From NCBI GenBank assembly GCA_018401015.1, contig JAGYLP010000017.1:1-39933 (forward strand): a stretch of DNA of 39,933 bases, written 5' to 3'. The DNA is from Bacteroidales bacterium (GTDB lineage: Bacteria > Bacteroidota > Bacteroidia > Bacteroidales > M50B96). Below, in pieces: positions 13,985 to 17,407 of the stretch. Numbering within the stretch: position 1 is the first letter of the stretch; each line of letters starts with the position of its first letter. A program made the translations under genes and the position numbers. A model generated the notes under the pieces. It was not told the DNA's origin and did not search any database. It saw nothing but the letters and a program-made list of their open reading frames with translations.

Positions 13985-15409
13985 CTATTTCCGGAATTTT
14001 CTTACAAAGTCCTCCACTTCGTCCACTCCACCCTGGTACACCAGGTAACCATTGTAGGGTTCACGTTCGGTTATTTCGTCGTTAATGGGAGTAAGCATGA
14101 GTTCTTTAACTCGTGCGTGTTTCTCTTCGGAGGTAAAGGATTCTCCTTGTCTGATTTCTTCTTCAACTACTCCCAAGGACCAGCCTAGTTTCACGAAGGC
14201 TACTTCGGGAAGCATGTTGCCGGCTGGAATTACTCCCTTGGCCATCATATCGCGACCGGTATCGTACACGAACATGTGCACGTAGCCCCAAATGGTTTGT
14301 AAGGTCATGTACACCGAGATTCCTTTTGCTTTTGCTCTCTCCAGAGCCGGATACAATTCTTTGTTTACGTGTCCTAGCCCGGTTCCAACAATCACAATTC
14401 CTTCGTAACCCAGGTCGATAAGGCTATCAATCACATCTGCTTTCATGTGGGGATAGTAATAGACCATGGTCACTTTTTCGCTGAAGTAGGGCTGTAGTTT
14501 AACCGATTTATCTTTCCTCCGGTGATTATACTGCTGTTTGATTGGTTTTATTTCGCCTCGCTTTACAGTAGCCACTGGCGTATCGCCGATAGTGCGGAAG
14601 GTGGAGCGGTAACTGGAGTGCATTTTTCGAACCCTTGTTCCACGGTGGAGAAATCCGTATTCGTCGGAGGTTGGCCCGAACATACAGACCATAACTTCGG
14701 CAATGTCGCCATGTCCGGCGGCATAGTTAGCGTGAATCAGGTTGAGCGCTGCATCGGAAGAGGGACGATCGGACGAACGTTGCGAGCCCACCAAAACAAT
14801 CGGCACCGGCGGGTTTTGCACCATGAACGACAGGGCTGCAGCGGTGTGGTGGAGGGTGTCGGTTCCATGTCCGATGACAATTCCGTCGATCCCGTTTTCG
14901 ATTTCTTTTCCAATACGGATAGCTAATTGTTTGTACTGATCGGGGCCCATGTTTTCGCTAAACACGGCGAATACTTTTTCGGTGGATAAGTTGCAAATAT
15001 CGGCCAGTTCGGGCACCGCACCGTATAGTTCGCCGGGCGAGAAAGCGGGGATTACCGCTCCTGTCCGATAATCGAGCCGAGAAGCGATGGTTCCGCCGGT
15101 TCCAAAAAGTTTCACAAAAGGAAGGTTATCGCTGAAGGGGAATTCTTTTTCCGGGATTTTATAGTTCGCTTTTTTGTATCCGGTTTCTTTCATTTTATGG
15201 ATGGTCCGGATATCGATACCGATGTTGTATCCGGTGGCTACCTTCATAACGATATGCAGGTCGTCGTCGTTTTCCGACCGAGGGAGGACGGTTCCGATGA
15301 ATAGTCCGCGACTGGTGTCAATTTCAGCTTGTCCCCAAACGCGTACGTTGTATTTTTTTAAAATTTCCAGGGCGTGCCCTTTGTATCCTTGGAAGAAGTC
15401 GTTGCTCAT
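13985..15409 (-). CDS. gatD: Glu-tRNA(Gln) amidotransferase subunit D (archaeal-type GatD)
   Basis: GatD is the amidase half of the archaeal GatDE enzyme. It splits glutamine (or asparagine) and feeds ammonia to GatE, which amidates Glu-tRNA(Gln). The 474-residue product has a ~90-residue N-terminal beta domain with no counterpart in ordinary asparaginases (VWGQAEIDTSRGLFIGTVLPR), followed by a type I L-asparaginase fold. The expected catalytic residues are visible: Thr107 in GTGGT, Thr183 and Asp184 in HGTDT, and Lys262 in RVRKMH. The segment HRGTRVRKMHSSYRSTF and the C-terminal tail (EREPYNGYLVYQGGVDEVEDF) are GatD-like, not plain AnsA. It follows gatE by 12 bases on the same strand, so the two are almost certainly co-transcribed. 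A plain asparaginase is the alternative, made unlikely by the gatE neighbour. Confidence 0.92.
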   Translation of the reverse strand: MSNDFFQGYKGHALEILKKYNVRVWGQAEIDTSRGLFIGTVLPRSENDDDLHIVMKVATGYNIGIDIRTIHKMKETGYKKANYKIPEKEFPFSDNLPFVKLFGTGGTIASRLDYRTGAVIPAFSPGELYGAVPELADICNLSTEKVFAVFSENMGPDQYKQLAIRIGKEIENGIDGIVIGHGTDTLHHTAAALSFMVQNPPVPIVLVGSQRSSDRPSSDAALNLIHANYAAGHGDIAEVMVCMFGPTSDEYGFLHRGTRVRKMHSSYRSTFRTIGDTPVATVKRGEIKPIKQQYNHRRKDKSVKLQPYFSEKVTMVYYYPHMKADVIDSLIDLGYEGIVIVGTGLGHVNKELYPALERAKAKGISVYMTLQTIWGYVHMFVYDTGRDMMAKGVIPAGNMLPEVAFVKLGWSLGVVEEEIRQGESFTSEEKHARVKELMLTPINDEITEREPYNGYLVYQGGVDEVEDFVRKFRK

Positions 15410-15421
15410 AATGGTTTGAAA

Positions 15422-17407
15422 TTAAGCTAATTGATTGACAATGGTTTTTATTTCGTTTCGAAGGTCCGATAAATTATAGTTCCCCAGTGCTTGTCGGTGA
15501 ATTTGTCCCATTAGCCAATTGATTGCATTTTCATGGCTTGGGTTATGGCTGATTTCTTTGAATTTTTCGTATAGGAACTCGATGGGTGCCAGTAATTCGT
15601 CTTTGCTTCTCTTCTTGTATTTTAGGGTAATCAGGACTGATTCAAAATCCATATTAGGATATTGATAGAGAATGGGCAGCATCCATTTAACGATTTCGGG
15701 CTCAATTTCTTTTGCATGCAGGAAGAGCAAGAGTTTTTCGACGAGTTCGTAATCGAAATCAGGGTGGCGTTTCGATTTTCCTTCGATGTTTTTCAGGTCG
15801 TGAGCAAATAGGGTGGCGAGCCACTTTGGTTCGAGTGGCATGTTTTGGGCTATTCTTTCGATGAGAGGAACCAGGTTGTTTCGGAGGATGTAATCCATTG
15901 CATCTTCGGGTACTTCCCAATTTCTCATTTGTTGATAGCGTTCCCAAATATCTTTAGGAAGGTTTTGTGCGAGTTGTTGAATGTATTCCTCTTCAACAGG
16001 GATAGGAGCTGAGTCGGTGTCGGGGTACATCCGGTCGGCCCCCGGTAAAACCCGCTCGAACATGGTGGTTCCGTTTTCAAACGATTTTCGGGTTTCGTTG
16101 GGTACGCCTTCAAGGGCCATTTTACATCGTTCTTCGATGGTCTCGATGGCTGTTTGAACATCGTCGGCAGGAGCCCAGAAAATGATTTGAGCATCGTTTT
16201 CGCCGGCACCAATCAGGTTGCTGAATAAGTCGAAATCGGGAACCGGTAATTCATATTCGAACTGTTCGGTATGGATCATAAACGGAGCAATCAGGCAAGC
16301 GATAACTTGCAGCCGGTCGGATAGTTCGTGAGCGAAGGTTTTCTCCGGTTGGGTGAAATGCGATAGAATCCCTTTAAATTCGGGAAGGTTTACCAGCATG
16401 AGTTTATGATGCGTGTCGCGCGCTGCTTTGAGCGAGAAGCTTAATTGCTCGAATGCATCGTAATCGAGTTCCATGGCTTGCAGGTTCCATTCCGTTGGGT
16501 TTGGAATCCGACTTTGTAAAATATCCCGGATATGCAGGAGAGCCCATTGCCGAAAAGCTTCGTTATGCGATAATTCTGGTATCCATTTATTGTGGGCTAC
16601 CCCTTTAATCTCGACTCGTGTTCCTCCTTTGCAGCTAACATTTACATCCTCTCGACCTGCTCCGATACCGATGCGTACTTTGCCGGTAGAGCGATTTAGA
16701 AAGCGGATGTATTGCGCTGCTTCCATCAATTCGTCGGGAGTGAATAATTCCGGATAAGTAACCGTTTCGATGAGCGGCATGCCCAGTCGGTCGGTTTTGT
16801 AAAGTCTTTTATGTCCTATGTCGCTTATTTCGCGGCAACTATCCTCTTCGATGCTGAGCTGAATGAGTTTTACTTTTTTGTTTTTTAGTTGAATTTCACC
16901 TTCAACTCCAATGATTGCGGTTCGCTGGAAACCGGTTGGAATGGAGCCGTCGAGGTATTGTTTTCGGGTAATGTGCACTTCGCCAACGATGTTCAATTTG
17001 GAAAGCAAGGAGATTTCGATAGCTATTTCCAGTGCTTGGCGGTTAATCGGGAAAGGAGGGGTATCATCCACTTCATAGGTACAAGCTGTTTCGTTATTGA
17101 TTCGGTAGGTGATCTCTTTTCGGGTTTTGAACTCCATGAGGGCTGTTCCATCGTATTCTCCCAATTCGGAGAGTGTCGGGCGCATGTGTCGGATAATTTC
17201 CGCATCGTAATCGTTATGGTCGTGATAGATTCCGGCCGGGCAGTTGCAAAAAAGTTTTTTCTGGGTAAGGAGTTGCTGATGGACTTCGAGCCCCGACATG
17301 AAGCCGATTCGTTGATAATCGTCGGGAGTGGCTTCTTTTCGGCTTACATATCCAATTGCTTTTTTGGACTGTTCGTAATTGGCTTTCGAATCAAAACTAG
17401 CTTTCAT
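15422..17407 (-). CDS. gatE: Glu-tRNA(Gln) amidotransferase subunit E (archaeal-type GatE)
   Basis: GatE activates Glu-tRNA(Gln) with ATP and amidates it to Gln-tRNA(Gln). The 661-residue product is slightly longer than typical archaeal GatE (about 620-635). The GatB-like kinase core includes GFMSGLEVHQQL (35-46), a cysteine pair in LFCNCP (54, 56), MRPTLSELGEYDGTALMEF (75-93) and GAGREDVNVSCKGGTRVEIKG (249-269). An AspRS-like GAD insertion spans about 330-450, with GAGENDAQIIFWAP (400-413), and is followed by the segment LPGADRMYPDTD (454-465) seen in GatE. The GAD insertion distinguishes GatE from bacterial GatB, which lacks it. The C-terminal part has the helical and YqeY-like tail domains that bind tRNA. 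The gene is first in a gatE-gatD pair, with a possible -7 box 141 bases upstream. Confidence 0.93.
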   Translation of the reverse strand: MKASFDSKANYEQSKKAIGYVSRKEATPDDYQRIGFMSGLEVHQQLLTQKKLFCNCPAGIYHDHNDYDAEIIRHMRPTLSELGEYDGTALMEFKTRKEITYRINNETACTYEVDDTPPFPINRQALEIAIEISLLSKLNIVGEVHITRKQYLDGSIPTGFQRTAIIGVEGEIQLKNKKVKLIQLSIEEDSCREISDIGHKRLYKTDRLGMPLIETVTYPELFTPDELMEAAQYIRFLNRSTGKVRIGIGAGREDVNVSCKGGTRVEIKGVAHNKWIPELSHNEAFRQWALLHIRDILQSRIPNPTEWNLQAMELDYDAFEQLSFSLKAARDTHHKLMLVNLPEFKGILSHFTQPEKTFAHELSDRLQVIACLIAPFMIHTEQFEYELPVPDFDLFSNLIGAGENDAQIIFWAPADDVQTAIETIEERCKMALEGVPNETRKSFENGTTMFERVLPGADRMYPDTDSAPIPVEEEYIQQLAQNLPKDIWERYQQMRNWEVPEDAMDYILRNNLVPLIERIAQNMPLEPKWLATLFAHDLKNIEGKSKRHPDFDYELVEKLLLFLHAKEIEPEIVKWMLPILYQYPNMDFESVLITLKYKKRSKDELLAPIEFLYEKFKEISHNPSHENAINWLMGQIHRQALGNYNLSDLRNEIKTIVNQLA

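Follow-up and report, generated by a model that had tools for sequence, protein, structure and literature searches.

An archaeal-type GatDE amidotransferase beside GlnRS in Bacteroidota: a probable second route to Gln-tRNA(Gln)

What does an archaeal-type GatDE amidotransferase do in a bacterium? The question is raised by a contig of a Bacteroidales bacterium (JAGYLP010000017.1 of assembly GCA_018401015.1; the whole stretch analysed, 39,933 nucleotides, is termed the window), on the minus strand of which positions 13985-17407 read, by their open reading frames, as gatE followed by gatD with a spacer of 12 bases. GatDE is called exclusively archaeal in the literature (PMC8762117, PMC9499178, PMC8007984), still so in 2022 reviews, and a literature search, with subscription papers mostly outside its reach, found no paper reporting a bacterial GatDE. 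An original prediction, made from the letters alone, had proposed that both subunits of the archaeal enzyme are encoded here on a bacterial chromosome, and this has been borne out, as both exceed curated family cut-offs with intact active sites. The pair is best read, with a probability of roughly 0.6, as an active Glu-tRNA(Gln) amidotransferase that would supply Gln-tRNA(Gln) by a second or repair route; its activity, substrate, ammonia passage and repair role are what we infer. The features on which the argument draws are as follows.

15422-17407, minus strand: gatE, 661 aa, kinase/transamidase and tRNA-binding subunit as assigned by family (NCBIfam equivalogs, PDB matches, predicted fold)
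16091-16498, minus strand: GAD-like insertion of GatE, residues ~304-439 (alignment to the GAD region of AspRS)
15425-15955, minus strand: helical and tail part of GatE, residues ~485-661 (predicted helices; putative tRNA-elbow role)
15410-15421, minus strand: gap of 12 bases between gatE and gatD
13985-15409, minus strand: gatD, 474 aa, glutaminase (asparaginase-like) subunit with GatD_N (NCBIfam, Pfam, PDB 1zq1_A, tetrad)
15200-15301, minus strand: N-terminal domain of GatD, residues 37-70 matched (Pfam PF18195)

The coordinates agree exactly with the predicted distance of 12 bases, and judging from this gap and the common strand, the two genes are probably carried on a single transcript. 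Family assignment is clear for GatD, which scores 469.1 bits against NF003217 (cut-off 310) and 467.1 bits against TIGR02153 (cut-off 324), both NCBIfam GatD equivalogs. With type I asparaginases it has in common the Asparaginase N and C domains of Pfam and a score above the asparaginase I subfamily threshold (345.7 vs 260.5 bits); it differs from these by its higher GatD score, its gatE partner and the GatD_N domain (36.3 bits, cut-off 25.7), the latter being the extra N-terminal domain that had been predicted. The catalytic tetrad was found at the predicted positions (Thr107, Thr183, Asp184 and Lys262) and is invariant in all 62 aligned GatD sequences, that of the window included. GatE exceeds the NCBIfam GatE equivalogs NF003107 narrowly (465.7 bits, cut-off 456) and TIGR00134 more widely (408.3 bits, cut-off 319.55); its best score against the six GatB models listed is 127.4 bits for a cut-off of 338, all six lying far below, and Pfam assigns it a GatB_N domain. 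The profile searches thus separate GatD from plain asparaginases and GatE from GatB, as expected by the original prediction. In the PDB, both proteins match best to archaeal GatD and GatE from the structures 1zq1 and 2d6f, with E-values of 1.2e-105 to 6.7e-79, the archaeal GatD 1zq1_A being first for GatD (E 1.2e-105).

The translation of GatE contains both the GLEVHQQL core and the LPGADRMYPDTD segment that had been picked out. Eight positions, which we take to be catalytic by analogy with GatB (E41, H43, D114, E187, E188, E214, D254 and E266), are invariant in 71/71 bacterial rows, among them the window's, and both archaeal chains (2d6f and 1zq1) have the same residues there; a ninth checked position, D115, taken likewise, is invariant in the 71 bacterial rows and is Glu in both archaeal chains. 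An AlphaFold model of GatE built from 34 bacterial sequences (mean predicted local distance difference test score, pLDDT, 76.9; longer stretches below 50 at residues 53-114, 150-159, 190-208 and 451-464) is nearest to 2d6f_D, the GatE of a tRNA(Gln) complex, with Z 25.0 over 468 residues and an alignment reaching residue 580. Against 1zq1, which Foldseek places first, the model gives Z 22.4 over 440 residues, and against GatB chains Z 18.2-20.6. The predicted GAD insertion was unmatched by the GAD model in a Pfam search of GatE; it is nevertheless supported by the predicted fold, in which residues 304-439 superpose, with Z 8.2-10.1, on the GAD region of AspRS structures. From residue 481 onward the model is helical (block pLDDT 79-93), and residues 485-661 give a weak match (Z 6.4) to the tRNA-binding domain of yeast GlnRS (3tl4); this helical and tail part would probably bind the tRNA elbow.

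The pair of the window is no isolated transfer and belongs to a deep bacterial lineage. Relatives were sought in GTDB genomes with short patterns from the window GatE, a search that distant bacterial GatE would escape and whose E-values are relative to the candidate stretches; 78 related loci were found, each in its own genome (genomes and loci carry our G and L handles), with a best-segment identity to the window GatE of 57-82%, the top values coming from partial genes. By record title or taxonomy, 65 of the 78 are Bacteroidota, and the remainder comprise six Fidelibacterota (Neomarinimicrobiota), two Calditrichota, three Aminicenantes, one Chlorobiota and one locus titled Deltaproteobacteria, which is Myxococcota in the taxonomy table. 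The titles of the genomes with GatDE thus cover six phyla or groups of bacteria. Downstream of gatE and on the same strand lies gatD in 67/78 loci; in eight of the 11 without it the sequence breaks off at gatE or shortly beyond, and in three (L009, L019 and L035) it runs on for 1.2-4.7 kb. A third partner gene was sought at the 78 loci, and gatD alone proved common, the next neighbour cluster occurring at no more than 14. Pairwise ratios of non-synonymous to synonymous substitution (dN/dS) reach 0.145 at most in 13 GatE pairs (lowest 0.005) and 0.156 in 12 GatD pairs (lowest 0.004), L038-L080 being saturated and giving no ratio; both bacterial genes are thus under strong purifying selection.

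When GatE is placed in a tree with two chains from archaea, the bacterial sequences lie on one side of a long branch (support 100); there the window clusters with L038 and L080 (99), and the Fidelibacterota sit inside the Bacteroidota. This nesting suggests that gatE has passed between bacteria. Two single bins, L027 (Chlorobiota) and L029 (Aminicenantes), also fall inside Bacteroidota, perhaps through recent transfer or a wrong title. When a tree of the catalytic region is rooted with GatB, the archaeal GatE clade is firm (100/97) and the bacterial one weak (58/30), archaeal GatE being represented here by three sequences, the two PDB chains and the initial portion of a Natrinema plasmid gene whose frame is broken. 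Transfer from an archaeon, earlier called the obvious origin, stays plausible, but bacterial GatE lies across a long stem and is not nested among the two or three archaeal sequences. Two unusual gatE genes were also noted. The gatE of the Natrinema thermotolerans plasmid (L276:3890-5854) lies in two overlapping frames, is missing from the gene table of its record, and is either frame-broken or misread. In Marinilabiliales BM703, GatE (L025:6001-7977) forms one frame with four in-frame stops (TAA and TAG), mostly at sites that are Glu or Ser in relatives, with gatD open; in the same genome (G022) a match in the LysRS range also has a stop, and AspRS is split over two short open frames.

The role of GatDE depends on what accompanies it. 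The assembly of the window (2.88 Mb in 84 contigs, 99% complete) holds one GlnRS of 569 aa, full length and with the GlnRS of 5bnz and 1o0b as best PDB matches, together with one GluRS and an AsnRS gene; a search for the GatB_N family found GatE as its sole member and no GatB. The original prediction had the cell, if the enzyme is active, make Gln-tRNA(Gln) by the archaeal route; a dependence on that route is not supported, given the full-length GlnRS beside GluRS. Among the 78 related GatE genomes, GlnRS exceeds its cut-off in 64 (43/50 and 21/28). Of the 14 others, G063 and G078 hold sub-cut-off pieces of GlnRS, seven have a GluRS match (G013, G024, G033, G037, G046, G071 and G072), and five match neither (G009, G025, G055, G068 and G075). 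The same GluRS model is also unmatched in six genomes that hold GlnRS or a piece of it (G001, G003, G035, G043, G045 and G078); incompleteness of bins may therefore explain many of the GlnRS gaps, though some genomes may truly have lost the gene. GatB, sought in 50 of the 78, is present in five.

A sample of 396 Bacteroidia genomes gives the same picture. Nine, the window's included, score as GatE, none of them with GatB, and GlnRS is present in 9/9 as against 144/387 others (Fisher p = 0.0002; the Fisher tests throughout ignore kinship among genomes). The other eight were recognised, with their sequence unseen, by a single match in the PF02934 score range (E-values of 1e-39 to 1e-45 for GatE and at most 5.7e-70 for genomes counted as GatB), and G297, with a match of 1e-4 only, was counted as neither. 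In 18 genomes of the window's order, a GatB_N match occurs in 0/18 and GlnRS in 18/18. Genus g28 comprises three genomes with GatE and GlnRS, one with GlnRS alone and two with GatB and no GlnRS, while in family f18 (n=19) the GatE genomes G360 and G377, along with G310, have GlnRS and the other 16 have GatB without it. GatDE accordingly accompanies GlnRS as an addition and not as a replacement, and replacement of GlnRS was rejected as an explanation in view of the 64/78 count. That GatDE simply stands in for GatCAB was judged a weak explanation: GatB is present in 5/50 GatE genomes, and within g28 the genomes with GatE and those with GatB are also unlike in their GlnRS. GlnRS-bearing members of g28 and g143 (L216, L217, L218, L219, L226 and L227) have glnS about 4 kb or less from gltX, as if GlnRS had been gained beside GluRS.

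As the GatDE lineage lives in bacteria that already have GlnRS, a second or repair route is the role proposed for it. By this mechanism, GatD would hydrolyse glutamine (or asparagine) to release ammonia, which would move to GatE, where the side chain of the Glu on tRNA(Gln) would be phosphorylated and then amidated. The substrate, Glu-tRNA(Gln), would come from misacylation by GluRS, being plentiful if that enzyme is non-discriminating and scant otherwise. Support for such a role may be drawn from the equivalog scores, the invariant residues, the 2d6f-like predicted fold, the dN/dS values and a few genomes (g28 and g92) whose GluRS appears relaxed.

These last cases concern position 358. Arg358 of Thermus is described as specific to discriminating GluRS in PMC3927822; the marker is fallible, since substitution of this residue in Helicobacter GluRS1 had no such effect according to the same paper. 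A GluRS set (n=115) was taken from 140 stretches, 25 without a complete GluRS being dropped (two GatE genomes and 23 GlnRS-only genomes, the latter stretches being surroundings of glnS). Lys occurs at this position in 11/11 GlnRS-less, GatB-bearing genomes, and Arg in 29/30 GlnRS genomes without a GatB_N-family gene (the exception, G367, has Lys) and in 3/3 with GlnRS and GatB. Residue 358 is thus a handy marker separating GlnRS-less from GlnRS-only Bacteroidia at the level of sequence, with kinship uncorrected. GatE genomes have Arg in 66/71, Lys in four and Asn in one (G039). The four with Lys, namely the g28 trio G134, G197 and G224 and G377 of g92, all have GlnRS, and their GluRS are sister to or grouped with those of GlnRS-less relatives in a tree; G093, a g28 genome with GlnRS and no amidotransferase, has Arg358. 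Lys358 in g28 and g92 is what one would expect if GatDE there deals with the products of a GluRS that has stayed relaxed.

Several observations nevertheless weigh against the proposed route. The GluRS of the window has Arg at the position of Thermus 358, as do the 66 GatE genomes above; little Glu-tRNA(Gln) may therefore be made, and the marker argues for a window cell that would form little of it. Lys358 is no commoner with GatE (4/71) than without (1/30, G367; Fisher p = 1.0), and a general tie of GatDE to Lys358 GluRS, striking in g28 and g92, was dropped as it vanishes in this larger count. The archaeal A1-U72 pair is missing from tRNA(Gln): the window tRNA(Gln) (TTG) has U1-A72 as its first pair, with discriminator A73, and U1-A72 recurs in 14/14 GatE genomes with a tRNA(Gln) gene in the sequenced stretches examined, the window's included. 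According to PMC9499178, archaeal GatDE recognises A1-U72 and the D-loop of tRNA(Gln). The expectation that GluRS and the identity elements of tRNA(Gln) should fit was hence not borne out at the sequence level, tRNA(Gln) having U1-A72 and GluRS having Arg358. Finally, the insertion and the tail of GatE are far less conserved than its cradle: for the cradle, the insertion (301-420) and the helical and tail part, identity among 11 divergent bacterial GatE is 0.78, 0.44 and 0.41, and identity to the archaeal chains is 0.41, 0.21 and 0.17, respectively.

The discriminator base was also considered. PMC9499178 gives G73 as the bacterial and A73 as the archaeal discriminator of tRNA(Gln); A73 occurs in 13/14 GatE genomes and G73 in G034, as well as in the sole comparison genome, the GatE-less G085. 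With one comparison genome only, the base was dropped as a correlate of GatE. At least 29 tRNA genes were listed for the window genome (150 of 204 candidates scored), with a single gene each for tRNA(Gln) (TTG) and tRNA(Glu) (TTC). This incomplete list has just one tRNA(Asn) (L110:1500-1577; G000:C14:13602-13677), and it is odd: its covariance score is low (41.6), its T-loop is long and its acceptor stem contains mismatches, as from small indels; assembly errors, a decayed copy or a better copy that was missed are possible.

A broader alternative is that bacterial GatDE, living beside GlnRS and a mostly discriminating GluRS, has left its archaeal job and amidates another aminoacyl-tRNA, most simply Asp-tRNA(Asn) where asparagine synthetase is lacking, or both substrates in the manner of GatCAB; we consider it improbable. 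If true, such a change of substrate would be new for an enzyme thought strictly archaeal and strictly for glutamine. In its specific form, which is somewhat less probable again, GatDE would amidate Asp-tRNA(Asn) supplied by a relaxed AspRS and would be the cell's own source of asparagine, like the GatCAB of Bdellovibrio. The window genome has AsnRS, no AsnA and only two partial Asn_synthase matches below 26 bits, and 8/23 GatE genomes examined (the window's included) lack both AsnA and an Asn_synthase match above 40 bits, with GatB in none of the seven tested among those eight (G065 fell outside that test). In a published table (PMC4206432), 9/89 genera with AsnRS and GlnRS and no GatCAB lack asparagine synthetases, as against 7/17 GatB-less GatE genomes lacking both (Fisher p = 0.004), or 5/15 (p = 0.03) when a rumen clade of four genomes is counted once; the samples compared are, however, unlike in kind, being bins on one side and genera on the other. 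Moreover, four of the eight belong to that one rumen Bacteroidales clade, in which G046 is a bin of 1.4 Mb, and AsnA or an AsnB-like gene is present in 15/23 (weakly matched in three, ~110-130 bits).

The AspRS sequences show little sign of the relaxed enzyme that this explanation calls for. The pair His31 and Gly82 is the mark of the non-discriminating Pseudomonas enzyme; among AspRS extracted from 17/20 genomes, that of the window lacks the pair and has Phe at 31, and those of G040, G047, G050 and G065, genomes in which asparagine synthetase is likewise missing, show the Leu typical of discriminating enzymes, with His31 present in G045 (a Calditrichota bin). Furthermore, PMC9499178 assigns the Gln reaction of archaea to GatDE and the Asn reaction to GatCAB. 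The asparagine explanation is thus weaker than the Gln-tRNA(Gln) route.

More doubtful still is a substrate beyond Gln and Asn decoding, be it another tRNA or a metabolite to be amidated. The lower conservation of the insertion and tail of GatE would suit it, as would the lack of a clear Glu-tRNA(Gln) supply in most hosts. Over the 71 bacterial rows, 197 GatE columns are at least 97% invariant, and while 97 of these are the same in both archaeal chains, 36 differ from a residue common to both, which would likewise agree with a new substrate. Yet the active-site residues and the overall predicted fold are unchanged, and gatD is the sole conserved neighbour, so nothing indicates another pathway.

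That GatDE is the sole ordinary route to Gln-tRNA(Gln), as in archaea, with GlnRS silent or otherwise employed, is very unlikely. The pair is intact and conserved, and 7/78 GatE genomes have GluRS and no GlnRS, these being metagenome bins that may be incomplete. Against this stand the full length and clear GlnRS matches of the window enzyme, the frequencies of GlnRS given above (9/9 vs 144/387, and 64/78) and the retention of the U1-A72 tRNA(Gln) and the Arg358 GluRS. The combination that the original prediction had named as contrary evidence, glnS and gatCAB in a genome whose GatDE has lost its tRNA-binding residues, was found in its first part, glnS being present; gatB was not found and the combination as a whole is absent.

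Comparison with known systems places the second or repair route among its relatives. The enzyme family itself is known; what is new here is the host range, the GlnRS partner and the bacterial tRNA. With archaeal GatDE (2d6f; Pyrococcus abyssi 1zq1) the pair shares its two subunits, domain order, GAD-like insertion, catalytic residues and GatD N-terminal domain, and it differs by its GlnRS-bearing bacterial host, U1-A72 in tRNA(Gln), ~29 extra N-terminal residues in the window GatE and the low identity of the insertion and tail. The archaeal Gln route (a non-discriminating GluRS and GatDE, without GlnRS) differs from the window genome in the same two respects, GlnRS and the first pair of tRNA(Gln). 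GatCAB and GatDE both amidate aminoacyl-tRNA, GatCAB handling both Glu-tRNA(Gln) and Asp-tRNA(Asn). GatB shares the catalytic fold of GatE, but the glutaminase of GatDE is the asparaginase-like GatD and not GatA, and GatB was found neither in the window genome nor in 45/50 GatE genomes. A redundancy of the Bdellovibrio type combines GlnRS, AsnRS and GatCAB with one AspRS and no asparagine synthetase; the window genome likewise has an amidotransferase and both direct synthetases with no asparagine synthetase found, but its amidotransferase is GatDE and its AspRS lacks the non-discriminating signature named above. A published scheme (PMC3927822) takes the presence of GlnRS and absence of GatCAB to mean a discriminating GluRS, and schemes of this kind overlook GatDE. 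NCBI models already name such proteins, and database annotation of bacterial GatDE therefore probably exists.

A chimera of archaeal genes mis-assembled or binned with bacteria may be taken as refuted for practical purposes: although the related records are almost all metagenome-assembled or uncultured genomes, the flanks of the pair are bacterial, archaeal and bacterial GatE separate in trees, and a titled strain, Perlabentimonas gracilis M08_MB, has a GatE match on a 50 kb contig. The neighbours encode MsrB, a LolCE-like permease, citrate synthase, a ComEC-like protein and a dipeptidase, all bacterial by NCBIfam and Pfam, and GC content is 0.42-0.48 throughout the window with no change over gatE and gatD, in keeping with the prediction of ordinary bacterial flanks on a contig that is not archaeal. 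With Perlabentimonas gracilis among the matches, the question is open to bench work.

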